From Ceraceosorus guamensis (lineage: Eukaryota > Basidiomycota > Exobasidiomycetes > Ceraceosorales > Ceraceosoraceae), in NCBI RefSeq assembly GCF_003144195.1, contig NW_020290029.1, forward strand, positions 1 through 64,000: DNA of 64,000 bases, written 5' to 3'. A program made the translations under genes and the position numbers. Positions 8,329 to 59,600 of this stretch are shown here, piece after piece (the stretch's first letter is position 1; each line of letters opens with the position of its first letter). The notes below the pieces were generated by a model. The model was not told the origin of the DNA. It saw only the letters and a program-made list of their open reading frames with translations, and searched no databases.

Positions 8329-11300
8329 TCACAATGCTTGCAGCGCAGCAGCCTCCAGTTGACGTTCCTTCTTGTCAATAGCCACGGCAGCAGCAATCTG
8401 CTGTACGAGGTTTCTCAGCTCTTGCACCAACGTGGACCTTTCCCACTCCGAGCGATGTCGCCATACAGCGTCAAAGCACGCTGCGCGAAGCTGCTCGAGC
8501 TGCTCTATCGTAAAGTCGTGCGTCAAGGCCAGCACTTGACCCGCAAGGTTGCTCATATCGTGATGCGAGATCTTGAAAGGCGGATGGGCGACTGGCGCAG
8601 GCTGAGGAGTTGGCGCTTCAAGAATCGTCAACGCGTCGCTCAGATGCTGCGCTTCGCCAGTGGCGGGCGCGCTGGGCAATGCCTGTGTGCGAGTCGGTGT
8701 GGCTATACCTGAGGAAGGGCCTGGTGAGGAGATGCTGCTGCTAATACTTGCGTGCGTAGTGGGCACAGGGCGCCCGTCAAATCCCAAAACTTGCTGCGCT
8801 TGCGCTCCGCCGGCAGCAACCAGAGTGGACTGAACGATGGGTGCATCGCTGCTCGCTTGCGACGCGGGCGCTCTCGGGTAGCCCTGCCCGGCCAGCTGCT
8901 CGTCAGCTTCCTGCTTGAGGCGCTTTCGTGCAGCTTCGTCTCCCGCACCACTCGGTACCCGACTGGAACTGCGACGCGAACGCTTGCCATCACGTTCCAA
9001 GGCGAGGACATCGACCAGTCTGATTTCGGGAGCTTTGCCTTGCTGGCGCGCGCTGGATCGCTCGCCCGACGGGCGACGAGGCGCGTCTGCTGCTGCATTG
9101 TCGGAAGCCGTCGCGGCTGCTTTGGCCGTCTGCTTTGCCTCTTCTTGCTCTCGCTTGAGAGTTCTGGCCGCCATACCTTCCACTTCCGCCTTGAATGCAG
9201 GCTCAATAATGGCGTCCAGGCGAATGATAGCTTCATTGCGGCACTGGTGTGCTCGCACGAGTCGCTCTTGATCCACTTCCTGAGCCATTTCTGCATTCCA
9301 GACAATCTTGCCGAGATCTTCTACGAATTGGTCTACTGTCAAGTAGCCGTTGTGGTAAAGCCGCTTTTGCATCTTTTCGAGCGTCAAAGTCCACAAGACA
9401 AGATCACGCTCGTAGTAGCCGGGTTGAGAGGAGTGTCGAAGGCCTGGGAGACCGGGCACATTTAGGTCATGACCCCTGTGTTTCGCTTCTTCAGGAGCGT
9501 GACCATTAGTGAGGACCGTCCCGTTGGCTTCACCCGCAGTGACTTGGACTGCGCCGGATGCTTGCATTGCTGCCTGCTCAGGCGCTGTGTTGACGTCAGA
9601 CATGGACACGTCTCCATTTGTCAGTGGCTTGGCCGCAATCTCCGCATGTGAAGTCGAAACGACGGGGTCAGAATCCTGCTGCATTTCGTCGCCTCTTGCG
9701 AGATCCTTTGCAGCCTCCCCAAATCGCTCGGCACCGGTCACGTCGACGCTTGAACGACGTCTGCGGCGAGTGCTGATGGATGTCTCATCGTACAAGATCG
9801 TGACGATCACCTTTCCTTTCTCTTTGCGGTAGTCGAATTGCTCCGTGAGCGCTCTTAGATTGTACTCGTCCTGCAGCGAAAGGGCGGCGTCAGCAGGCAT
9901 GCGACAGCAGCATCGCGAGAAGGCCGACTAACCCAGACATCTCTCGTGAATCTCTTGTGCTTCTTGCGCAAGTCCACAAGGACCAGACCCAGGCGATGCT
10001 TGAGATGCTCCAGCAATCTTTGATCGTCTGCCTTCTGCTGCTCAAGCTCAGCAACGGTAAGTTCCCGGGGCTTGCGTGGCGGAGCAATCGGAAGTTTTTC
10101 GAGCTGCCTCTTGCGGCGAGGCAACGCGTCTGGAAATTCGTTCGGAGGTCGCATAGCATGCTCGAATACATCGTTGAAGTACATCCTGCGAGCTTCGACA
10201 CCTGGCGCTTCTATCTGAACCTTGTTGTCGTCGAGATAACCGAACCAGGAGCGCACGTCGCGAGGGAGCAGCTCCACTGGCTCTTCTGCGACTGCGAGCA
10301 AGAGCACTGGATCGGCAGGGGAGAGGCCATCGAGCAGCGCTTTGACTGTTGAGCGGACAGAATCAGAGCTAGACGTAGCCCATTGCGCCAGACCCGGAAT
10401 GAAGATCACAGACGGCTTGTGGCGTTTAGCTTCCACGAAAAGCTGGACGATGGCTGCCTCTGGCGTCCTGGCAGAGTCGCCTAACAAAGAAGCGATATCC
10501 AGAGATTGGACGTGATAGCCCTCGAGATGATGCAGAAGAGCAGCGCCGGTGATTCCCTGTCCCATACCATTCTGACCGTGAATGAGCAGACGGGGACGGA
10601 AGACACGCATAGCCTCAAAGGATTGCAAGAGCATCTCCCGGCCGAAGCCTCCGTCTGGAACACTCGAACCAGACTGCACGTCGTCCTCCCAAAGCGCCTC
10701 TTCCAGCGGATTGCGCTTCGCAGCCGGTGGCAGGACCTTCTGAAGAGCACGCACAGCTCGCTGGACTGTGTGCTCCAGCAGAGGCTTGAGATGTTCGGGC
10801 AGAGGCTGAGCTGCAGATGAAGCTGACCTAGCTGAAGAGGGCACGATTTCTGCGCATGGCGAAGATGTCAGGTGAGCGACTTCGAGGACGGGCCATGATC
10901 GTCAATGAACACTCACTATTAACGCTCATCATAAAGTCCTTGGCATCGACGTGTATTGTTTGTGGATCAAGGAGAAGTCGTTCAGTGGTCTGGTAGATCT
11001 GAGGATAACGGCGCTGAATAGCATTGAGCGCAGCTTCGGTACACAAAGCCCGGAGGTCAGCACCACCGTACCCTTTGGTGACTTCGGCCAAGCGGTCCTT
11101 GAATGCGGTGTCCAAGGGTGGGTTCCATTCCTTGGTGTGAATGTCGATTATCGCGCGCCTTGCTTCTCTATTTGGCAGGCCGAAGTAAAATTCGCGGTCG
11201 AAACGGCCGGGACGGCGTAGCGCTGGGTCAACGGAATCAGGTCTATTGGTGGCTCCGATCACGACGACTTGGCCTCTGCCGTCCATACCATCCATTAATG

Positions 11301-33841: not shown

Positions 33842-36800
33842 ATGTCGAACATGGCTTCCACTTCGCGCAGTGCTGACCAGGCAGTGTTACCCGCCAACGT
33901 CGAGGCGCCTCGACAGCTGTGCGTGCATGCGGCCCGACCGGGCCCTCCCAGCAGCAGCTTGAGCTTGGGTTTGGGAGATGCGGCCATACCTGGACAAGTA
34001 TTCAAAGCTTCGAAAGAACGAAATGTACGAAGAGTCAGAGGGGCTGCGGTCTGGTATGCTCCTTTCGAAGGAGAAGTCAGGGTAGTCGATGTGAGTCGCA
34101 CTTGGCGCGATTCGTGTTTGCTTGTTAAAAGTGAAGACTCTTGACAGCTCATGTTGAGTTGTTTAAACCTGCACACCACGCAGTCATCGACCAGCGAAGC
34201 GTTGTCCACCTATCTGCTACCTGCTCCTCACTCCGGCCACGCCTACACAAACGTCGCACCTCATCTGCCCAGCCTCATCTCCTCTCCTCTTGTCCTCTTC
34301 AACGCTCCTTCCGCTTCTCCCGACATCGATACAGATTCGAAATTGACGCACGCCTACCTACCGGCACGCAAGGGAGAAGAGTATGGTGTGATGCAGTGGA
34401 TAGAGAAGGGTGGAACAGCAGAGAGAAGCTGGATCTCGCTTCACAAACCTGCTGCTCATTTGGCCCTGCTCAGTGCCACAGTTCTACTAGCGCTGCACGC
34501 CGACGGCTCGCAATCCCTTGCAGACCTGAGCAACAAAGACATGCACTTTGTCCAGACCTTTTTGCCGTCCTTGACGAGTCCTAGTCAGACGCATTCGGTC
34601 CTCGCTGTGTTGGCGGGCAAGTCGGCGTGGGACAGATTCCCCCCGCTCAAACCTAGTGCAGGCTTGGACGAAAGCAACAGCAAGGCTTTGGTCTTTTCGC
34701 TGTGTGGAACAGCGGCACCCGAAGTGATCGGAGCGGCTTCAGCGGGAAAACGAAGAGGCAAAGGCCACAAGAGGGACAAGAGGGAAGAAGGCGCACCACA
34801 GGTACAGCAGTCGCAGCAGAGTGCAGAAAGCGCCTCGAGCAGGAAGAAATCCAAAACGCTAATTTTGCGCATACACATCGTCGATCCGACTGCTTGCAGA
34901 GCTGAATCTGAAGCGCAGGGTCCAAATGGTCTGCTGGCTGATCTACCCATCCAGTCGGCACGCGCAGACGAGCTGCTTTCGATGTCGCTGAGCAGCGACG
35001 CCAAAAGCCTGGTCACCTTGTGTAAGTGGATACGGGCACCTATGGTCAATCAGTAGAGCACTCTGACCGGCAGGAGCGCTCTGCAAACCGTTTCTGGTCG
35101 CCTCCACAGCCATTCAAGGAGTTCTTCAACAGTACACACTCAATCTCTCGACAACATCGGGCGCATCCTCGCTCGTTCAGTCGCCGACACTCACGATGAT
35201 TCGATGTCCATCGCCGCCAACAAAAATGGCCAAAGACGCTGCTTTATCTTCGACCTCTTCCAAGGTGAAGAGCCCTTCCCTACCTGCCGGCACCACCATG
35301 GTGCACCTTCCGCACGACCATGTGCTCTTCGTGCTGCCGCCCAGCGAAGGCACTTCGACTCCCCAGCCTGGAGCATACCTGATCAGCTTGGTGCTCGGCG
35401 CAGTGCTGGACTATGAGCCTACTCAGGTGCCTGGCACTTCGGGAGCCCAAGGTCAGACGTCTCTGAGCATTAGAGCTGCTCGGATTGGAGGAGGCGTCCT
35501 CCTCACTCAGACGCGCGTGCACGGAACACGAGCTTCGATGAGCAAAAAACACAAGGACTCCTCTGCCGCTGTCGGATCTGGACCTGGAGAGTGTAGAGTC
35601 GCGAGCGTGCCAGTGGACGTTCCGAATGCAGCTAGCATCAAATGGGCTATCGGACAGGAGACTAGAGCCTGGACGAACGCGTTGCTTTGGCCTCCTGGCA
35701 CGCCCATCTCAGTCAGTCTGTCGACGCTGGCTTCTGCCAAAGCATCGCATGCGCATTCATCGACGGACCCGACGGCAGAGAAGCACGAACTCGTCGTGGC
35801 TCTACGAGCTGCAGACTCTGCAAGCGCCAAGGATGACGTCTTCAAAGCATGGTATGATGTGGAAAAGGGAAAGATCGCTCAGGCGGAAGCGAAAGCTGCG
35901 CGCACTCGGACGAGCGAGCTTGCGCACGCTAGGAAAGTGGCCGCCCGCAGGAACAGGCAGGCGAATAGTGGGACGATGGGTAAGAGCGAGGATGAGGAGG
36001 AGAGGGATGTGCAGATGGAGCTGGAAAGGTTGATGCTGCAAAAAGAACGGGAAACGGATGCGAATGCGAAAGAAGGCAAGATGCAGGGAACGGATAAGCA
36101 GCAAGCGTCAAGGCCTGCCTTGCCTGGCGCAGTCGTAAGACTAGTGATAGAACAGGCTTTTGCGCATGCGCATGCGCCCAACAATCCGGCCGTCGCTTCC
36201 ACTCTGGTGCACCACTTGATGCTGTGGAGAATGCTCTCTGCGAGTCAGGTGTTGCAATTGTCGTCCACCGACGAACACGACAAGCAAGGCGAATCTAGAG
36301 GACTCATTGCTCGGCTGCTGGACCTGCAAGAATGGGACTTGGCACTTTTGGCAGCGACGAACGTGTCGGATGTTCAAGAGTTTGAGCTTGTCCTTCTCTT
36401 GCTGCGTTCTTTTAGAGCGGAGCGAGGACGAAAGCGGGGCGATGCCTCGTCTAACAAGGGAGTAGCAACAGCAGCTTCGCCCGCGCGCGTGCTGGCGGTC
36501 CTGACTAGCAGACCCGAGCTGATCGATTCGGCAGCTTTCAAACATGCTCTGCTCAAAAGTCAATTGACGGATGCGGATCGCGTAGCAGATCTGCTCGCGA
36601 GGTTGCACGATTGGCTGGCGGAAGGGTTTATAAATCAGACGAGTCACTTGGGCAAGGGAATAAAGGTCAATGTGAACTTGGTGCCGAAGCTGAAGAAGAA
36701 AAGGGGCAACAAGCTATCGCACACGGAGAGAGCGCATGATGAGAACAAGATCGTCAGACCTGGAGTGGACGAGGTGAGCATGCTTGATCGGTAAAGGGGG

Positions 36801-37710: not shown

Positions 37711-40700
37711 TCACTTGGACTTTTGTTCGTCATTGTTCGCAGCGCCCCCGCCGGCACTGGTTGCGGCGGCCATCCGCTTGCTGGAGCTCGACAGACCCAA
37801 AGAAATCTTCTTGAGACCTGGCGCGCTCGAATTAGTCGCGGAGCCGCTTTGCTTTTCGTTCGAGCTGGGCGTTGCGGAGGGCGAGGCAGTGCCGGCATTC
37901 GCAGATGGGACAGGCGTAGCAGACTTGTCTCTCAAAAAGCCGCTCTCCTCATCCTCGTCCTTGTCCTTATTCTTGAGCGCCTGCCTCTTGGCCAGCCGAC
38001 CAATGATATCCTCATCTTCGTCCGCATCGTCAAATTGCCCCGTCGATGGACCAGACAAGGATACTGCATCTGCTCCGCTTCGCCTGCGCTTCTGCCGCGG
38101 CTGCTCCTCCTTGACCTCCGACATCTTCTGAATCGGCGATTTGCGTCTCTTGAGTGTGGGCTCAGCCTTTGGTGCCAAAGAAACAGGCGCTTCTGCTACT
38201 GCCAGCTTCTTGGCAACCTCCTGCGCGTCAGCGTCTGCATCGGCCTCGACATCGTCGTCGTCCGCATACGCCACCAAGGAGCGAGACATGGGCGCAGAGG
38301 AGGGCAGTTGAGAAAAGCCTTCGTTGGCACCAACAGCGCCGGGAGGCTCGAGTATAAATCCACCACCTGTGTCGTGCGATGGCACGACAGGCTGCTGCCC
38401 TTGAGAAGCCACATTCTCGTCGTCTGAATCATCGTTGAAGTAGCTCTCTTCATCCGAATCCATCGTGGCCCGATTAGCTCCTCTTCTCGCGAGATCTCTC
38501 TGACGCCGATCCTTTTCTGCTGCCAAAGACGCCGCAGCGTCTGAGGCGCTCATGTCGCCAACCTCGGGTGCAGGGAAGAGATTTCGTTCGTGTTGATCGA
38601 GAAGAGCTTGAAAGGCGCCGCCAACAAGGGGCGCCGTAGCAAGCGCACGCAATCGATCTCCGAAGCTATCCGCAAGCTGGGCGATCAAAGGCTTGACATT
38701 TTCCTGCGGTCAGGTTGAAGACCAGTGTTAGAGCGAGCAAGCACAATGACAGAGGATGCAAATGGTAATATGTGTGACCGGTATCTGTGCCTTTCCCGCA
38801 GAGTGCTTGAGAGGATGGCTCTATATGGCGGTCGACGCCCAAAGCGATTTGCATCGCCAGCTTCAATCTTGGTCCCATCTTGCCCTCGTCAAAAGACCCA
38901 GGGTCGTGCCTCGCCGTGCACAGGTGTGACAAGCCATGTAACAGCGCGGCAACCTAACAGACCTTTGAATGCGGGAAACGCGCTCAAGACTGAACTACTC
39001 ACCCTTCTTAGATAGGCGAAAAAGTCCAAGCATGCAGACGCGACCAGGTTGTCCCTGTGCTTCTCGTGCTCCACCGCTGCCAGTACTGCTCCAACCAGCT
39101 CAACCTTGACAAAGTGCCTGTTGATGTACTGGTTATTCCTGGTGAGGCAAGCCTTCAAGAAGCGCAACGCCGCCAGTCTGATGTGCTTCTCTCTCGCATA
39201 CAGCAAGCTGACGACGTGCCGAACGATGTCGGAGGTGATGATAAAGTACTGACTCCGAAAGGTGTGGTGCACAATGACGTAGCAGAGCAGATCGCAAAGG
39301 TGCGCAAAGAGGGCTGATCGGGCCCTGGGTGACAAGTCGATGCTTGCCCCTGGGGCGATAACTTTGAAGAGCGGCAGCGAGAAGAAAGGCGAGAACAGTC
39401 GCTCAATGTCGCCCTCGTACACCAGATTCAAGAACCGGTCCGACTCGTCCTTGGGCCGAGAGCCGACGGCTGCAGCAGCTGCAGCAGCCAGGGTCTGAGC
39501 TACCGGATTAGCAGCGCCCATCTCTGCGGACGTGTCTAGTAAGACCCGTGTGGCCTCTGACATTTGAGCTTTGAGACCTAGGTCCTGCTCCGCATGCAGC
39601 GACTCTACCAGAAGAGTGGAGATGGGCTTCATGCTCGCTTCCGCTTGAGCGAGCGCGTGCGCTCTCACGCTGCTAACGTCGTACTCGATGATGGTGAGTA
39701 GCACTTCCGCAGCCGCATTGCGCAGCTTCATCTCTCCCTTGAGCTGCAAAGCCCACTCCAAAACGCTCAGTAAGCCCCAATCTACCAGGGATCGATAAAG
39801 GCCTATCCGAGCGGGTAGCTGTACCTGTTTCCCCATCGCGCACAGCTGTTGCAGGAAGATGACGCCTTCCGCCATTTGCTGCGTCCCCGGTCCGGAAGGT
39901 GGCTTCTGATAGGCTATGACGCGGTCCGGCAGGCTCGGGGCGCCTTGAGGGGGAGGTAGTCCCGCATTCTGTCCGTTAGCCGCATTGCCAATCATCATGT
40001 GCTGCGCCGCGCCGGGTGCGTCTGCCCGTCGGGGAATCGTCACCTCTCCATATACCGAAAAGAAGCGGTTCAGGAAAGAAGCATTGGCAGAGCAAAAGCC
40101 GACAATGTCTACTTGATGGAAGAAGATGAAACTGTTCAACACCGAGAACATCGCATCGTCTAGCACTCGAGCTAGGATCACGTCCCGCAGGTATTGCAAA
40201 CGATACGTCTGGTGTATCTTTGCCAGTATCACTGGGTCTTCGATGTCCACGACAGTCCGAAACTTGGTCGTGTTCTGAAGGAAGTCTCTGTAGCTAGCCT
40301 TGAGCGTGGGGAATTCGGGATCATCTGCGGACACGAAAGGCAAGCAACTTAGGCTATAGTCTCCACGAGCACTCGAGCACTGCTCAGAACTCGAACTCAC
40401 ACTCTAGCATGCCGACAACCCCCAAGAAAACGTCGTCTTGCAAAATTTGCTCCAGCAACGAGTGTTCGTTGAGCATCACTGTGAGCATTCGAAGATGAGA
40501 CGCGTTAATGCGAATTGCCGTGTAAGCATATCAAGCGCTCTGGTCCCACTTACGAGTGGTCTGCGTGATGGAGCAAAGGCGATGCAGAGCTTCCAATTGC
40601 TCTAAATCCTCCGCATCACTAAATATGGGCAATAACTTGTGCAAGAAGTTCTGTTCGCAATGCATTCGGACAGGAAGAGTCAATCGGAAGCTACGAGCGC

Positions 40701-42409
40701 GCCGATGTCGCATAATGACCTTAACTCACGCTCCGCAGCATCCATGCAGCAATTTTCTCCCTGGCATGTGGACTTCTAGCAGCAGCGTCCTTGATGCTCA
40801 TTTCGATGAGGGCCAGGTTACCAAGTGACGGGTCAGGAAGGACAAACGCAGCGCCATTCGGTCCAAAGGGATCGTGTCCCGCAGGTCCGAGCGCCGACGG
40901 GCTACTATCAGGATTTGGAGTCAAGGGGGGCGATTCGAAGCCTTCGTCGCCCATTCTTACGCCTCCTTCGACGCCTCCAGGCCCATCCAAACTTCCTGCA
41001 TTGAGATTGAAGTGCTTCTGCACCTCTTGCAAGAAGTCCCAGATCTCTTGGCACCCGTCCGCCTCCTGGAAAGAGAGGGCCATGTCTTGCCCATGCGGCT
41101 CCGTCCAGACGATCAGTGTATCTGTGCACAGGATGTACAGCACAGTCAGCATATGTTATCACGCCCTGCCACTCGTATGGTAATCACCTTGCTGTCTTTG
41201 ATACACGTCATCTCTGACTACGGTGGTCAAAAGTAGAAGGTCGTCCGCTTCTAGCGTCGGGGTGATGACGACCATGAAATTTTGCGATTCATGTGCAGTT
41301 GATGCGCCTTCTTGTCCGGCTTTCTGCGGGCTTGCAGGGTTCTCAGTAGCAGTTGCACCTGCTTGACCGCTGGACGGTCCTCCACTCATGGGCTCAGGGG
41401 AGGAGCTCTTCTCCAGCGGCAGATCTTCGCAGGCATCCTCGACTCTAGCAGCCAGCAAAGCTTCATCTCGTCCCTCATCGTACACACCAGCACAGAAACC
41501 CGTGCCTCGATCTTGCCAGCTATCGCCTTGAAGCTCGTACACCTTCACTCTTCTAGCCGTGCCGCACTGATGATAAGCCCCACGCGATACTGTACTGGAC
41601 GTCTGCAGCGGACCATCCCTATTGTCCCCAAATGACCTGTCTTCCCTGCTGATGCCCAATCCGCTCGAAGATGCAGATGACGTGCTCGTGTTGGAAAGAT
41701 CGCCTGACAAGTCACCATCCTGATTGACCCATCTAGGCATCGAATCCAAAATATTCTTCATCTCTGCTTCCTCCTCTTGCAGACCAACAGACTGAGGAGT
41801 GGGCAGCTGCGCACCAGCGCCCTGCAAATCAACCGGTGCGAGATTTGCTTGACCCAGCGCGCCTACGGCATTCGGAGTTCTATCTTGAGATCCAGCTTGG
41901 CGTCCGGCGCTCGGAGCAGGCCCTCCGCCCCTGGGTGACCTCTGCGGCGATCGCGATTTTGCCCTCTTGTCTGTCCGAGCGTTTTTGTTCGAAGGGGAAG
42001 ACGCGGAACCGGTAGCATCGTGTAACCGCTTGGAGCTCGTGCGGACGGGTGCAGTCACTACGACCGCTGTCTCCTTCTCTTTACCCTTGGGACTCGAAGA
42101 TAAAGCATTGCTCCTTGCCCTCGGTTCACGACGCGTCTCTGCTGGAGAGTCCGGTGCAGTGACGGGTACTGAGGTAGAAGAAGCAGCGCTTGCTTTGGCA
42201 CGAGAACTCGCACCAGCTGCACTCCGCGGCGGCGTCTTGGGCGGAGTCTTGGTGACCGGGGATGAGGAGGAGGAGGAAGAGGAGGAGGATGTCGGAGCGC
42301 TGGAAGCAGAAGTTGCGCTCTGTGCAGGCATGACCGAGATGGGAGCAGGTGCAGGTGCGGAAGTAGACGAGGAAGAAGACGATGAGGATGAGGATGCCTT
42401 ATTTTGCAT
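37711..42409 (-). CDS. PSY2: PP4 regulatory subunit 3 (Psy2/SMEK/Falafel)
   Basis: Regulatory/targeting subunit of protein phosphatase 4, acting in the nucleus in DNA-damage recovery and related signalling. Six exons (41188..42409, 40730..41121, 40554..40650, 40401..40478, 39003..40324, 37711..38703) give 1367 aa with all phases consistent. Residues 1-280 are Ser/Pro/Lys-rich, include an NLS-like [14 protein letters not shown] and are much longer than in yeast Psy2. A PH/EVH1-like domain follows ([19 protein letters not shown]), then the conserved SMEK armadillo region with [31 protein letters not shown] and [21 protein letters not shown] disordered acidic C-terminus with KR-rich motifs completes it. 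Confidence 0.93.
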
Positions 42410-43723
42410 TGCAAGGAGGAGTCTGGGTGTTTGTTTGTTGTGGACTCGATTGCTTGGAAGTGCAGTGGCTTCTAGCTGCTGGTGCTCTTCCGCTCGACTG
42501 CTGATGGCCGCAGATCGCAGGTGTCTATCGACGCGTCGGCAGTTGGATCATGATGTGATAGTACCTTGACGCAAGGTCTGTGGGACTCGTGCCTTTTGTG
42601 ATATTGCGCCAACTTCGCTCGGATCGCTTCACCTTTGCTGGATCAGCAAGCCGTGTTCGCAGAATCTTTGGCGGCAAGGCGTCAATTCCGCCTACTCGGG
42701 TGGAGTCGTGTGTCCCGTTTCGTGGTGAGTAGTCCCAAGTGCACCTGCGGTACGACGCGATTCGTGATTCGTGATTGTGTGATGAAAGTGGAGAGACGAG
42801 GCGTGGGCGGACGGGTCACGCGCGTGTCATGTGCGCTTCGTCTGGCGCGTTGTGCTGCTGCTGCTGCTGCTCCTTGCTTGCTTGCTTGGCTTTGTTTTTG
42901 CTGCTCGTGATAGAATCAAATCGTGAATACGAATCGCGAATATCACGAATGTACGCGTGTGTGTCACGACCGCGCGCGCGTGACCAAATCGCTGATGCGC
43001 ATGCGCTCAACTCTGACTCTAATGCTGCTTTGGCTGGGTGGCGAATATATTGAATTGAAGCCGCGTCGCGCCTTCTGATGCTGCAGCATCATCATCATCA
43101 TCCAGCGGACAATTCGAAATTGAATTGAGATGTCGATGCACGATGCAGAAATTTGCGGGCGTCGCTGCACCGATGCTCGCGCGACTTGCAGCAGCCGTTG
43201 CGGCTTGATTTGCGCCCAGCCAGCATCATGCGCGACGCGGCCTTCAAGATGTGCGAGCTGAGAGGCGCGCGCGCGCTGTTGCCCAAACTCAACAGGATCG
43301 ATCGCTTTGCACCTTCTTGCCGAGCCACGTGATACGAAAGCGAGCGGGAATACCACGCTTGCCCAAAAGGCACACACATACCGGTACACATCAAGTCGAG
43401 CGTCACGCGTGCAGCGGTGCAGAGCACAACTTCTATCAAAATCATGAATTTGCTTAGTAATCAGATATACCCAACTCACGACTGTACGGTCTTCATGAAG
43501 AACACGGCCGAAGCCCTCCAGAAGACGCGAATAGCGACCACAGACGGTTGGAAGAGTACGGTCATTGACGCCCTTGCCGACCAAGCGTCCAAGATCCGAC
43601 TCGATAAAGCGCGGGGGACAAGTTGCGCAAGACTTCCATCAACGAGCTTGCTTCGGGTGCAGAAGATCGCGAATCCGAACATCTCGAGATCAACTCGAGC
43701 AGACTGTAAAGTTGCTTGCAAAT
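42410..43723. promoter_or_regulatory. divergent region PSY2 / mitochondrial-type unknown gene
   Basis: 1.3 kb. It contains short tandem repeats (GCT)n and (CTTG)n at 42853..42889, (ATC)n at 43086..43102, the GATTCGTGATTCGTGATT motif at 42758, a GTGAATACGAAT... cluster at 42906..42950, and CCACGTGA at 43325..43332. Open frames here are motif-less. Confidence 0.45.
42758..42950. repeat. dispersed ATTCGTGATT motif clusters and tandem repeats
   Basis: GCGATTCGTGATTCGTGATT at 42757..42776 is the cleanest tandem copy of the motif in the window. Degenerate units recur at 42906..42950 in both orientations. Between them lie (GCT)6 and (CTTG)4 runs. Confidence 0.6.
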
Positions 43724-53013: not shown

Positions 53014-53021
53014 TCACGTGA
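53014..53021. promoter_or_regulatory. TCACGTGA palindrome (Cbf1/bHLH-type site)
   Basis: Perfect TCACGTGA 309 bp before the start codon of the gene encoding cystathionine beta-lyase. In S. cerevisiae this is the Cbf1 core that, with Met4, drives methionine genes. Here it is inference only, since CACGTG cores also occur upstream of unrelated genes in this window. Confidence 0.35.
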
Positions 53022-53329: not shown

Positions 53330-56300
53330 ATGTCGTCACCTCCCACGCCTGTGCGCACCTCTTCAGAGGCCAGCAGCGACACTATGGGCCTCAGCACCAC
53401 GATGGGCTCTGCGACAAGCTTAGCCACACCCGTCGACTCTGCACCCACGTCGCCCTCTCCATCCGTGCTAAATGTCCCCGTACAGAGCAAGAGCTCCGAA
53501 TCAACCTCAAAGCCCCGAGTTGCAGCCCAGGATCGTCGAAGTGGACCTTCAGGTCACCGCTTCGCTACCACATGCGCCACTGTGGACGACCCCAACCACA
53601 AGGACCAGTATGGCTCCTCCAGCACCCCCATTTACATGAGCGCCACTTTCAAGGGTCTCCCCGGAGCCGAGTTTGATTACTCTCGCAGTGGGAACCCCAC
53701 CCGAAGCATGCTGCAGCACCACTTGTGTCAGCTGCAAAATTGTCGATACAGCTTTGCTGTCAGTTCCGGCATGGCCTGTCTGGACGTGATCACGCGCTTG
53801 CTCAAGGCTGGAGAACGCATCATCGCAGGTGATGATCTCTATGGGGGCACGAATCGTCTGCTCACCTATCTTGCCACGCACGGGGACATCAAGACGGATC
53901 ATGTGGACACCACTGATGCGGACAAGGTGCAAGAGATTCTCGAACGACGTGCGGCCGAGTCCGCTCGCGGTGAATGCGGCAAGGTGAAGATGGTTTTGTT
54001 GGAAACGCCTACCAATCCCCTCCTCAAGATCTGCGACCTCGAGCGCTGTGCACGCGCTGCCAAACGCTTTGCTCCGGAAGCCATTGTTGTGGTGGACAAC
54101 ACCATGATGAGCCCATACCTCATGCGCCCCCTCGAGCTGGGCATCGACGTCGTCTACGACAGTGGCACCAAGTATCTTAGTGGCCACCATGATCTCATGG
54201 CTGGTGTCATTGCGTGTGATCGCGAGGATGTCGGCAAGGTGAGGGGCTGACACGCCGAGGAGGCCCGGCTATAGTCCGCTAGCTCACACCACTTTGGCAT
54301 CCTTTCGCAGCAAATCGCATTTACAGTCAACTCTATCGGCAATGCGCTCACCCCAATGGACTCTTTCCTTCTGCTGCGAGGCATCAAGACGCTCGCCGTT
54401 CGTATGGATAAGCAACAGACTTCTTCCAAACACGTCGCGCAATATTTGCACTCTCTGGGTTTCAAGGTGAATTACCCAGGTCTGGCTTCACACCCAGGCA
54501 AGGACATTCACGATCGCCAAGCATCAGGACCGGGTGCTGTGCTGAGCTTCGAGACTGGGGACAAGGAACTCTCTGAGCGTATCGTCGGTGCGACTCGATT
54601 GTGGGGCATCAGCGTCAGCTTCGGCTGTGTCAACTCGCTCATCAGCATGCCATGCCTCATGAGTCACGCCTCCATCGATCCTAAGATCCGCGCGGCTCGC
54701 CGCTTGCCCGAAGACCTCATTCGCCTGTGCGTCGGCATTGAAGATTGCAGAGACCTCATCGAGGATCTGGAAGCGGCCCTGCTCCAAGCTGGCGCTATCA
54801 AGAGGAAGTCGCAGCTGAGCAGTGCGGCTTCCACGCACACGGGTCAATCCACAGCCGAAGGGCATGTGGCTGCAGCGGCAAACTTTGAGCGGATCATCAG
54901 CAGCGAAGCCGACGAACCAGTTGCAAGTCTCAACTCAGGGTTGGCTACGGCGTCGCTCGAAACACGCGGCGGGGATCCTTTGCAAGGTCTCCCTGCAAGC
55001 TCTCCCGCAGACGCTAATTCGGCTGCCATGGCAGCAGCGGCGCCTGCCTCTTTGCTTGTCAGCGCGCCCGGAAAAGTGATCCTCTTTGGAGAACACGCTG
55101 TGGTTCACGGAGTCACGGCCATAGCTGCGAGCGTGGCGCTGAGATGCTATGCGCACGTTGCCTCACGCGCCGACGCGAAGGTGAGCCTGACCTTACCTGA
55201 TCTAGGCACCGAGCATACTTGGGCTCTCGACGAACTGCCCTGGGACCTGGCACCCAGCGTTGCGAGCTGGCGCGGCGTTCACAAGACTCCGGAGACACTC
55301 AACGAGCTGCTGCATCATGCTCTTGAGACCCTTGTTGGTGCCGTGGCGGAGGAGAGTGAGAGAAGCCATGCCGCCAGCGTTGCCTTCTTGTACTTGTACC
55401 TCTGCATTGCACCCAGAAGCAAAGCGTAAGTCCCGCAGCGGTGGCGTCAAACGACAAGCGAGCGCATGCTGAATCGATCCCACACTTCTGTTTAGTACCG
55501 GTCAAGCGTTTGTGCTTCGCTCCACTTTGCCTATTGGCGCTGGGCTAGGAAGCAGCGCTTCGCTCTCTTCCTGCATCGCATCAGCCCTGCTCGTCACGCA
55601 CGGCCGCATTGCTGCTCCCACGCCTGGTTCGGTGATTTCGCGCTCGGCATCTGACCTGATCAATAGCTACGCATTCCTCTCGGAGAAAGTGATTCATGGC
55701 AACCCTTCCGGCGTCGACAATAGCGTCGCTACTCACGGAGGAGCGCTGGCATTTGCTCGTGCGAGCTCGAGGACGGGACGCAGGCAGAATGAATTGCGAT
55801 CCTTGCACGGCTTCAAGAGCTTCAGGTTCCTTCTTACCGACACAAGGGTCGGACGTGACACGAAGAGCCTGGTTGCTGGTGTGGGCGCGAAGCTGACGGC
55901 TGACCCGCAAGGCATTGGAGCGACTTTGACAGCCATTCAGGCCATTGCGGACGATGCTGAGAACGTGCTTGGATCGTCGACCAGCCGACAGGCGCAATTG
56001 AGCTCGCTCGCCCGCCTCATCGACGAGAACCACACGCACCTGGTCAGTCTGGGCGTGAGCCATCCGGCGCTGGAAACGATCAAGCAGACCACTGCCGGTG
56101 CGGGCCTGTCGACGAAGTTGACGGGCGCGGGCGGAGGCGGATGCGCAGTCACTTTGGTACCTGACGATTTTGAAGAGATCAAGCTTCGACAATTGGTCAG
56201 CAAGCTGGAGGGCCAAGGGTTCACGTGCTACGAAACGTTGGTCGGTGGACCTGGCGTCGGTGCACTGTCCCCTCACAGCGCCGTGCAAAGCTCCAACGAC

Positions 56301-56396
56301 GGTCAAGCTGCAAGAGAGGCGCTGATCAACTCTTCGCCCGAGGCTCTGACTGCTTGGGCCGACAAGGCTGGAGCGTGGATACACTCTGACAGCTAG
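53330..56396 (+). CDS. STR3/ERG12: cystathionine beta-lyase - mevalonate kinase fusion protein
   Basis: Three exons (53330..54238, 54311..55425, 55496..56396) give one 974-aa protein. Residues ~80-463 are a PLP-dependent cystathionine beta-lyase (cystathionine to homocysteine + pyruvate + ammonia): YSRSGNPTR, LLETPTNP, VVVDNTMMSPYL, and the PLP lysine at ~281 in DSGTKYLSGHHD. After an Ala/Ser/Thr-rich linker (~464-548) comes a full mevalonate kinase (mevalonate + ATP to 5-phosphomevalonate), residues ~549-960: APGKVILFGEHAVVHG, LPIGAGLGSSASLS, HGNPSGVDNSVATHGG with the catalytic Asp, and TKLTGAGGGGCAVTL. Exon 2 alone carries the lyase C-terminus, linker and kinase N-terminus with no stop. The start is the Met in GCGACCATGTCG. 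An internal ATG at 55028 (GCCATGG context) could start a separate kinase. No PTS1 or clear presequence. Confidence 0.93.
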
Positions 56397-56609: not shown

Positions 56610-59600
56610 TTACGCCTCGACATTGTAGATGTCGAAGGCCGGTTCAGCGGGCAAAGCGTGCTCGGCAATCTTGGCGTCGTCTCCCTGCGCATCCTTGATG
56701 AGCGCAACGTGAAGTTCTTGCAGACCCAGCGTCCTCTTGAGGTAAGCTGCGGCGGATTGCAGAGTTGCGAGCTCATCAAAGGGAAGTGCTCTGTTGAAAG
56801 CCACGCTGGGTCCAAATTCCGCCAAGCGTCTCTGCGTGAGGGTAGTGAGACCGAGTGAGCATGTCAGCAACGCTTCACGTGCGCAGGACAGCCCGCTGCA
56901 ACTTGACGCAGACCCGGACGCTCTGGTCGACGCTCACCTTGAAGTTCATGACGAAAGGCATGACGCGCTTGTCCTTGACGATGCCTGCCTCAGCTAGCGC
57001 TTGCCTCACACCCTTATCGTCCACCGCACCCGTCTTTTCGTCCAAATGACTCTTGATGGCCTGCACACATGCATTTTGCCAATTGGGAAATTCCGTTGCG
57101 ACGAACACCTTGACGGCTTTAGGCTTCTTGGGGTCAAAGCCTGAGCTGTCCTTGCCCTTCGACTTGCGCTTGAGAATCGTCGCCTCTCCATCTCGGATCG
57201 TCTTTGTCGTTGCTCGGACGTACGTTGCCGCATCTGACAGTCCCTTGTCGATGGGCTTGGATAGAGCAGGCCATCTTTGAACTTGCACACTTTGCTTCTC
57301 GTTGCCCAGTGTCTTCTTCCAAAGGTGCTCTGCAAAGTGAGGTGCGATAGGAGTCATGATGAGAGCTTGAACCCTGATCCATTGTTCGATCAGCTCCACA
57401 TGCATGCCGATGTCCGCCGTCGCTTCTCTGTACAGATCTCTTGCGGTTAGCAGCTCGTACCATCCGAACTTGAGCGCTTCTCGATACAGCGACTCTTCGT
57501 AAGCGGCGGCTGCTTGCTCCACGAGCAGATTCATATCGTTTTCGAAAGCTGCGTCCCAGAAGGAGTCTTTGGGCCCGCTCCTGAGTTTCGATCGATCAGA
57601 CATTTGAGCATCGCACCAGTCCAGCAGAGTGTGGATACGAAGGATGTTGGCGTTGGCAGTCTTTTCTTCAAAGTTGGCATCCTCGATACCATCTCCAGCA
57701 TCAGCGAGACTGATACGCGTCGCATCGGCTCCGAATTTGTCGACAGCTTGACGCAACGTCAAGACATTCCCTGTGCTCTTACTCATCTTCTTTCCGTTGA
57801 GCATCAGATGACCGTTTATGCGCATTGCTTGGGGCCAGTGCTCCTCGGGAAATAGAGCAGCGTGGACGTACACGCAGAAGGTCAAGTGATTCGGTATGAG
57901 GTCCTTACCACTTGATCGTAGATCCATGGGGTAGAAGTACCTGAACTCGCGCCTCAGCTTGGTCAAGACCTCTTTAGAAATTGCAGAATCCTGGGGATAA
58001 GCGGTGTCGCTGAGAATGTAATCCCAGACGTCGTCTGTCAGATCCTTCGCTTGGATGCCGAGCGGCCCGACTTTGGAACCATCCACGACGCCGTCTTGCA
58101 GGAAGTGAGAGACAGTGTAGTACGCCATGTAGATAGTAGAGTCGCTGAGCGATTCCACGAGGAATTGCTCGTCCCAAGGGAGCTTGGAACCAAGACCGTA
58201 GCTCCTAGCACAGGCCCATTGATGAAGCCAGCCGAGAACTCCTTCGAAACCGTTCCTCGTCTCATCGTTGAACGTCTGCATCTGAGCGACGAGTCTGCAC
58301 AAGCGAAACATCCCAAGGCACGTCAGCACCGCGTTCGCCGGGCGCATCTGGTTTCTTGATTCACACTACTCACTTTTCGGCCTGCATCTTCCACTTGTCC
58401 TCTCCGTAGTCAATGTACCACTGATCGCACAATGCGACAACACAATCGTCCGCACTTCTACTGACCACCTTGCCCTCGGGTTCTGCGTAAGCAAAAGCGA
58501 GTCCGGCATCAATCATGTCCTGTCTAACTTTGGGCTTGGCATCCTGCACCGCTTCGCCCTTGTACTGTCCCGTGACCATTTTGCCAGAGTAGAAGCCTTC
58601 CTTGTATGCAAGCTCCTTGGCCTCTGCCAACTGCTTTGCGTCTTTCGGAGACTGGATCTTGAGCTGCTTGCACAGCGTCTCGGCCGTCAGATCGCCATAC
58701 GTGGGCGTCGTGATCACAGGGAACGGGTCGTAAGAGACCCACTGAGGGTCCACCTTGTAGTACTCCGCTTTCTTGCGCAGCTCCATCAAGTTCGCGTAGT
58801 CGTCCGGAGAATCGCTTGGCACGGAAGTCACGACGCCTGTTCCCTTTGTGGGCAGGACCGAGTCCATAGGCAGAATGTAGACCTCTGGGTAGTGTCCAAA
58901 GGGAGCCTTGATGCGGGTTCCAACAAGCTTGGATCCTGCAATCGAGGCAAGTTTCTTGACCTCTCCCCGTTCAGATGTGACACCTTGGAAAGCCATGTTT
59001 CTGGCAGCGCGTTCAGTGCACAGGTAGACGTCCTTGTCATTGATGGCAAAGAGGCCATAGTTGATGCTCGGGCCCACGTAACAATTAGTTTGTCCATACC
59101 TATGCTCTCGGAAACAGTCGATGATGAGCGATCCCTGAGTGACACTCAAGTGTAGCCGGGCGAGCACATGCACTCACATTGTCTCGGGTCTCAGCGTGGC
59201 AGCGACGAAATAGACATTCTTGCCCTGCAGCTTGGCGTCCAATTCCGGCGCAGCGTTCGCACTCCACTGCACCACCTCCATCTTGAGACCTGTGTATTCT
59301 TGGGGGCCCAACGCCTCGCCCTCAGCTCTGTCGTGGTCCATGCACGGTTGACCATCTTTTGGACTGTAAATTGTGTATCTCTCTCCGAATTTGATCTTGT
59401 CCATCGCTCGCAGCTTGTTGATCTGCCACCTTACGAAAGAGTCAAAGTACGGATTGATGTCTGTGGTCAAGAATGCACGTCGCCAATCAATACGGGCTCC
59501 GATGGCTGTGCAGTCGGCCTGGGAGCAGAATTTCAAAAGGGTCAATTGGTGCGCTCTACATCACATGCCTCTAATGGAAAGTGGTGCACAATGCTCACCT

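Follow-up and report, generated by a model that had tools for sequence, protein, structure and literature searches.

Previously Described Fusions

A gene that joins cystathionine beta-lyase (CBL) and mevalonate kinase (MVK) is already known from Basidiomycota; it has been in print since 2012, and transcript evidence dates from 2013. According to the relevant passages of the Ganoderma lucidum genome paper, this gene, termed 'metC-MVK', is found in 12 basidiomycetes, with Laccaria bicolor as the exception, is the sole MVK homologue in the basidiomycetes analysed there, was inferred to result from one fusion event and has a 16-residue insertion in its MVK in 7 of the 12 species, that is, in part of the family only (PMC3342255). 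The passages of a paper on Magnaporthe STR3 that treat the same architecture report that every basidiomycete examined, Postia placenta excepted, has an MVK domain at the C-terminus of the protein, and that no stand-alone MVK was found in these fungi (PMC3468542). The same kind of gene is described in an excerpt of the Lignosus genome paper (PMC4129116), a fusion unigene is recorded for the mycelium of Pleurocybella in the passage on that transcript (PMC3720577) and an EST entry for the fusion appears in the corresponding part of a Ganoderma EST paper (PMC3642047). For Ustilago maydis, the relevant passages list Mvk1 (05496) and state that MVK was not predicted by KEGG (PMC7396576); the word 'cystathionine' is absent from the text of that paper. 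No mention of the fusion was found in the available portions of two other papers (PMC4393869, PMC9925542), and no published experiment on the reason for the retention of the fusion was found in the literature covered, which was mainly open-access and available in part. A basidiomycete protein with a comparable organization is FfSPDS-SR, a spermidine synthase-saccharopine reductase, which, as described in the passages available, also joins enzymes of different pathways that are bridged within a long exon, although its enzymes are unrelated to CBL and MVK (PMC10051792).

The gene described here lies in a window of 64 kb, i.e., the whole stretch of Ceraceosorus guamensis DNA that was analysed. 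Like metC-MVK, it has an N-terminal CBL and a C-terminal MVK and is the sole MVK homologue; unlike it, the Ceraceosorus copy has 974 residues vs. an average of ~886, and judged from the passages available the two differ in nothing of kind (PMC3342255). Its N-terminal extension is long, and its junction between the domains has 88 residues, while the median is 48 residues in the 120 fusions listed from the search described below. The architecture is identical to that of the basidiomycete STR3 with a C-terminal MVK, as given in the relevant passages; both are without a stand-alone MVK, and the two are alike in kind (PMC3468542). The stand-alone STR3/CBL and ERG12/MVK of Ascomycota, Mucoromycota and other fungi are the same enzymes, which are encoded there by two genes; their identity to the respective halves of the fusion is 57-63% for CBL and 39-46% for MVK in the species-labelled rows among the matches listed.

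Gene Structure, Domains and Structure Model

The fusion gene is on the + strand and consists of three exons of 909, 1115 and 901 nt, as computed from the sequence. They sum to 2925 nt, or exactly the 975 codons counted in the initial annotation. Exon 1 (53330..54238), which contains the start of the gene, is followed by intron 1 (54239..54310; 72 nt, GT..AG, GTGAGG..TTCGCAG). Exon 2 (54311..55425) holds the C-terminal part of CBL, the junction and the N-terminal part of MVK in a single frame, and intron 2 (55426..55495; 70 nt, GT..AG, GTAAGT..GTTTAG) separates it from exon 3 (55496..56396), which encodes the remainder of MVK and the stop codon. The initial reading of exon 2 as one uninterrupted frame across both halves was borne out: from stop to stop, the middle frame spans 54275..55429 (stop codon counted), and at the local stop frequency the chance that its 384 codons would all be open is ~1.4e-5. 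The deduced product has 974 residues, over all of which (974/974) the spliced product is identical to a public C. guamensis protein (P0001). A single protein of ~105 kDa had been anticipated, which is close in size to the computed mass of 102.2 kDa.

The CBL domain (53585..54781, +), split by intron 1, is matched by Cys_Met_Meta_PP (PF01053) at residues 86-460 with an E-value of 4e-122, above the Pfam cut-off. The MVK domain (residues 554-974 plus stop; 55061..56396, +), split by intron 2, is matched by GHMP_kinases_N (PF00288) at residues 676-757 and GHMP_kinases_C (PF08544) at residues 843-902, both also above cut-off. The N-terminal half scores 521.5 bits against TIGR01329 for eukaryotic CBL (cut-off 487.5) and the C-terminal half 216.1 bits against TIGR00549 for mevalonate kinase (cut-off 163.05), in agreement with the initial description of both domains as complete. 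K281 of the fusion is aligned with K278 of Arabidopsis CBL (1ibj), while K558, E738 and D749 are aligned with K13, E193 and D204 of mammalian MVK (1kvk); the PLP lysine had been placed near residue 281 on first inspection, which was right. K281, which we take to be the PLP lysine, and K558, E738 and D749, presumably the MVK catalytic residues, are invariant in 120/120 aligned fusions among the listed matches. The existence of one gene in which a complete CBL is followed by a junction of 88 residues and a complete MVK is confirmed.

In the structure model, both domains are mostly confident, with weak stretches at CBL residues 80-88 and 91-111 and in the linker at residues 503-544, and the best Foldseek matches are MVK 1kvk and cystathionine lyases. 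The pTM of 0.52 gives no confidence to the arrangement of the two domains relative to each other. To our knowledge, no metabolite is common to the CBL and MVK pathways. Because the domains are not confidently placed against each other and no shared metabolite is known, flexible tethering is favoured over channelling.

Copy Number in the Ceraceosorus Genome

When the C. guamensis assembly (23.8 Mb, 199 contigs) was searched with the MVK protein, the fusion locus was the sole match. It is also the only locus in the genome that exceeds the TIGR00549 cut-off, one other locus reaching 27.7 bits (cut-off 163.05), and the only one that exceeds the TIGR01329 cut-off when scored exon by exon. PF00288 matches three other loci, one of them more strongly than it matches the fusion gene, and further PF01053 genes are sited elsewhere in the genome. 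As the only gene above the cut-off for either enzyme, the fusion gene probably serves both pathways.

Distribution Among Fungi

A search of fungal proteins for both domains in one protein had been proposed in the initial annotation. The whole-protein search, which admits only proteins of 0.55-1.75 times 974 aa and favours fusions, scored 8000 candidates and gave 703 matches at an E-value of 1e-3 or below, and PF01053 and PF00288 are both present in 120/120 of those listed, where P0001 is the query itself. The listed fusions come from three basidiomycete subphyla. We take Meira, Exobasidium, Ustilago, Tilletia and Malassezia to represent Ustilaginomycotina, Rhodotorula, Sporobolomyces, Microbotryum, Mixia and Atractiella to represent Pucciniomycotina, and Pleurotus, Armillaria, Calocera, Tulasnella and Wolfiporia to represent Agaricomycotina; taxonomy records place Bartheletia in Agaricomycotina and C. 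guamensis in Ustilaginomycotina, Exobasidiomycetes. Cryptococcus, Puccinia and Wallemia have no row among the 120 listed of the 703 whole-protein matches; Vanrija and Austropuccinia are present as shortened rows in the search with the CBL half.

Because the length filter of the whole-protein search is biased toward fusions, each half was searched alone. CBL is carried by 4/4 species-labelled basidiomycete rows of the MVK-half search (120 listed of 7287 matches), and MVK sequence, shortened, is contained in 8/8 such rows of the CBL-half search (120 listed of 7996). A stand-alone MVK or CBL of Basidiomycota was found in none of these 12 species-labelled rows among the matches listed, in a tally of stand-alone and fused proteins that leaves out rows P0137, P0148, P0251, P0259 and P0272. 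The remaining species-labelled rows of both searches are from Ascomycota, Mucoromycota and other fungi, in which the enzymes are stand-alone. CBL remnants lie upstream of the kinase in 17/120 listed MVK-half rows, and another count, in which truncated frames and motif variants are pooled, gives 18/120 listed rows without the N-terminal kinase motif; by eye, the leaders of P0127, P0132 and P0135 resemble pieces of the junction. Thirteen of the 120 listed CBL-half rows continue into the kinase start, a further row (P0254) has a later kinase motif, and 8 of the 13 depart from the kinase sequence just past HAVVHGV, as at an intron. Rows P0137 (MVK) and P0251 (CBL), which come from contigs of equal length (27861), may stem from a fusion that was later split in two, or a gene caller may have gone wrong at an intron.

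The fusion is old and is common to mushrooms, rust relatives and smuts, and the Ceraceosorus copy is an ordinary member of the family. The initial statement that the two enzymes are separate genes in fungi is true for Ascomycota and false for Basidiomycota, in which all 120 listed proteins are fused, and the accompanying view of the fusion as unexpected has to be abandoned: with 120/120 listed of 703 matches fused and descriptions in print since 2012, it is ordinary for Basidiomycota.

Phylogeny and Origin

Quick maximum likelihood trees with midpoint rooting were built from hand-chosen rows. In the MVK tree, a branch with an SH-aLRT of 99 divides 21 fusions, taken from the 120 listed, from 21 stand-alone MVKs. 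In the CBL tree, which contains the same 21 fusions and two rows of the CBL-half search, a branch likewise divides the 23 fusions from 16 stand-alone CBLs, again with an SH-aLRT of 99; four rows of this tree are long-branched. Because the fusions group together in both trees, a single fusion event most likely preceded the divergence of the basidiomycete lineages sampled.

The Junction Between the Domains

The junction (residues 466-553, 88 aa; 54797..55060, +) separates the last conserved CBL residue (A465) from the kinase start (S554). Among the 120 listed fusions its length ranges from 38 to 131 residues with a median of 48, and most of it is unconserved in their alignment. At the local stop frequency, the 88 codons of the junction by themselves have P ~0.08 of being free of stops by chance, so that its openness proves little. 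With regard to codon usage, 127 of 2000 synonymous randomisations score equally high, and the true frame (-0.024) is outscored by a wrong frame on the forward strand (0.027) and by a frame on the reverse strand (0.164).

The first part of the junction, residues 466-497 (54797..54892, +), is predicted to contain a strand (466-468), a low-confidence stretch (473-487), a helix (487-492) and a second strand (495-497). In the alignment column of R497 (54890-54892), 114/120 listed fusions have Arg, an assignment that is sensitive to gap placement. An aromatic/Leu-x-Arg motif, [YFLI]xR[VAITN], is found in 111/120 fusion junctions vs. 1/105 stand-alone-looking CBL tails, the latter number resulting from 106 such rows of which P0259, without the GIED motif, was dropped. 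In 110/120 fusions this motif lies within residues 21-65 after GIED, in a comparison in which the fusion junctions exceed the stand-alone tails in length; these tails are short, with a median of 42 residues past GIED (n=105). Based on the model, we read the residues up to the R497 strand as a putative small extension at the C-terminal end of the CBL domain.

Further along is a putative disordered linker (residues 503-544; 54908..55033, +) with pLDDT <50 in the structure model, and the motif ETRGGD (residues 520-525; 54959..54976, +) falls inside this stretch. In its general form, [EQ]TRG[GE][DE], the motif is present in 31/31 top-ranked fusions (P0001-P0031) and in 0/89 of the remaining listed ones, and it arises 6 times in 31,000 shuffles of those 31 junctions. 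The species labels among the 31 carriers are those of smut lineages, and the group of 89 includes Malassezia and Jaminaea, which are Ustilaginomycotina too. Both junction motifs were defined post hoc, and the sequences are related, so that the counts are not independent. Translation in this frame is better supported by a motif common to 30 other proteins than by codon usage. Together, the two motifs point to translation of the junction and to a degree of constraint on it, and they do not indicate the purpose of that constraint. Neither is mentioned in the published accounts of the fusion that were found, mainly in the open-access literature and as far as these accounts were available.

Proposed Explanation and Alternatives

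The structure of the gene, its domains and active-site residues, its place as the one gene above the cut-offs, the distribution of the listed proteins and the tree grouping were observed as described, and we consider it highly probable that this is a basidiomycete fusion gene of single origin that encodes one bifunctional tethered polypeptide and is retained by need. Most likely, one mRNA has given one bifunctional polypeptide, tethered and not channelled, since the basidiomycete stem. In the cell, this mRNA would encode a single polypeptide of 974 residues. Its N-terminal PLP-dependent CBL would convert cystathionine to homocysteine for methionine, and its C-terminal ATP-dependent MVK would phosphorylate mevalonate to 5-phosphomevalonate, which feeds isoprenoid and ergosterol synthesis. 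The halves would be joined by the short C-terminal extension of CBL and the flexible linker, and the domains are most likely spatially independent, with MVK riding on a presumed CBL oligomer. Wide conservation and a single copy show long retention, which does not by itself show a benefit. The simplest reason for retention is probably a ratchet, in which neither activity can be spared and no separate copies are left; the fixed one-to-one synthesis would then be a side effect or a modest benefit. The exceptions in print, Postia placenta (PMC3468542) and Laccaria bicolor (PMC3342255), as reported in the passages available, are counted against this explanation, together with the possible split in rows P0137 and P0251, the indistinct codon usage of the junction and Met543, from which a shorter kinase might be made in Ceraceosorus.

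An artefact in which two adjacent genes were joined by read-through of the junction would agree with an Ala/Ser-rich, poorly conserved stretch of 88 codons that has a chance of ~0.08 of being open and no distinctive codon usage. However, 120/120 listed matches from many sources are fused, the linker motif occurs in 31/31 top-ranked fusions vs. 6 times in 31,000 shuffles (for a motif defined post hoc in related rows), and transcripts are reported in the relevant passages on Pleurocybella (PMC3720577) and Ganoderma (PMC3642047). Such joining is extremely improbable and was rejected because of the fused proteins listed, the shared junction motif and the published transcripts. It is also quite improbable that the one gene yields two working proteins, either by cleavage of the linker or through an internal start or promoter that gives a separate kinase. 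The pLDDT <50 of residues 503-544 and Met543, which has a GCCATGG context and precedes the start of the kinase by 11 residues, are consistent with two products, but a Met <=20 residues before the kinase is found in 25/120 listed fusions and in 3/31 of P0001-P0031, and 62/120 listed junctions are without any Met, so that an internal kinase start is not conserved.

The fusion may link sulfur metabolism with sterol metabolism. Sterol C-methylation consumes SAM, and the fusion might be an adaptation that ties the supply of methionine and SAM to isoprenoid and sterol synthesis by stoichiometry, allostery or localisation. Its presence across the listed basidiomycetes, the Arg of the R497 column (114/120 listed fusions), the enrichment of [YFLI]xR[VAITN] in fusion junctions (111/120 vs. 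1/105 stand-alone CBL tails) and the lineage-specific linker motif [EQ]TRG[GE][DE] all point in this direction. On the other side, the two pathways are not known to share a metabolite, the domain arrangement is not confident at a pTM of 0.52, and a junction of 38-131 mostly unconserved residues is unlike a rigid interface; on balance we regard an adaptive fusion as unlikely. The specific proposal that the junction is more than a spacer, and that the fusion-specific R497 in its predicted strand and lineage-specific motifs such as ETRGGD couple homocysteine/methionine synthesis with mevalonate phosphorylation, in a regulatory or physical manner, is in our view unlikely. If true, it would explain why the fusion is rarely undone.

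Under the tethered, ratchet-retained explanation that we prefer, two biosynthetic pathways depend on a single transcript and a single polypeptide in the basidiomycetes sampled. Because both enzymes are on one polypeptide, a change in MVK in such fungi may also affect methionine synthesis. KEGG did not predict MVK in U. maydis, according to the passages available (PMC7396576). We infer that the fusion may help to explain why a pathway database can miss basidiomycete MVK; it could also be useful as a rare-event marker for basidiomycete ancestry. The interest now lies in the so far unexplained retention and in the constraint on the junction, and the question of retention is testable.

Surroundings of the Gene

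The palindrome TCACGTGA (53014..53021, +) lies ~310 bases upstream of the ATG of the fusion gene, and we take it to be a possible bHLH/Cbf1-type site. It occurs 3 times in the 64-kb window vs. 1.42 expected, and 18 of 100 shuffles reach 3; CACGTG occurs 21 times vs. 18.84 expected. Because the enrichment is not significant, a role of TCACGTGA in sulfur- or sterol-type regulation is a weak lead only.

Two long open frames in the window, 8332-9924 (- strand, 531 aa) and 35067-36791 (+ strand, 575 aa), have no Pfam match at an E-value of 0.001. On the - strand, 41162-42547 and 38892-40403 match PP4R3 (EVH1-like, then PP4R3 core) and are probably one intron-containing gene. The downstream neighbour of the fusion gene, at 56878-58365 on the - strand and perhaps extending to 56610, is a putative leucine--tRNA ligase with Anticodon_1, tRNA-synt_1 and RBD_LARS1 domains. 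The two genes are arranged tail-to-tail and, judged by eye, would be ~210 bases apart if the frame at 56610-56933 is the last exon of the ligase gene.
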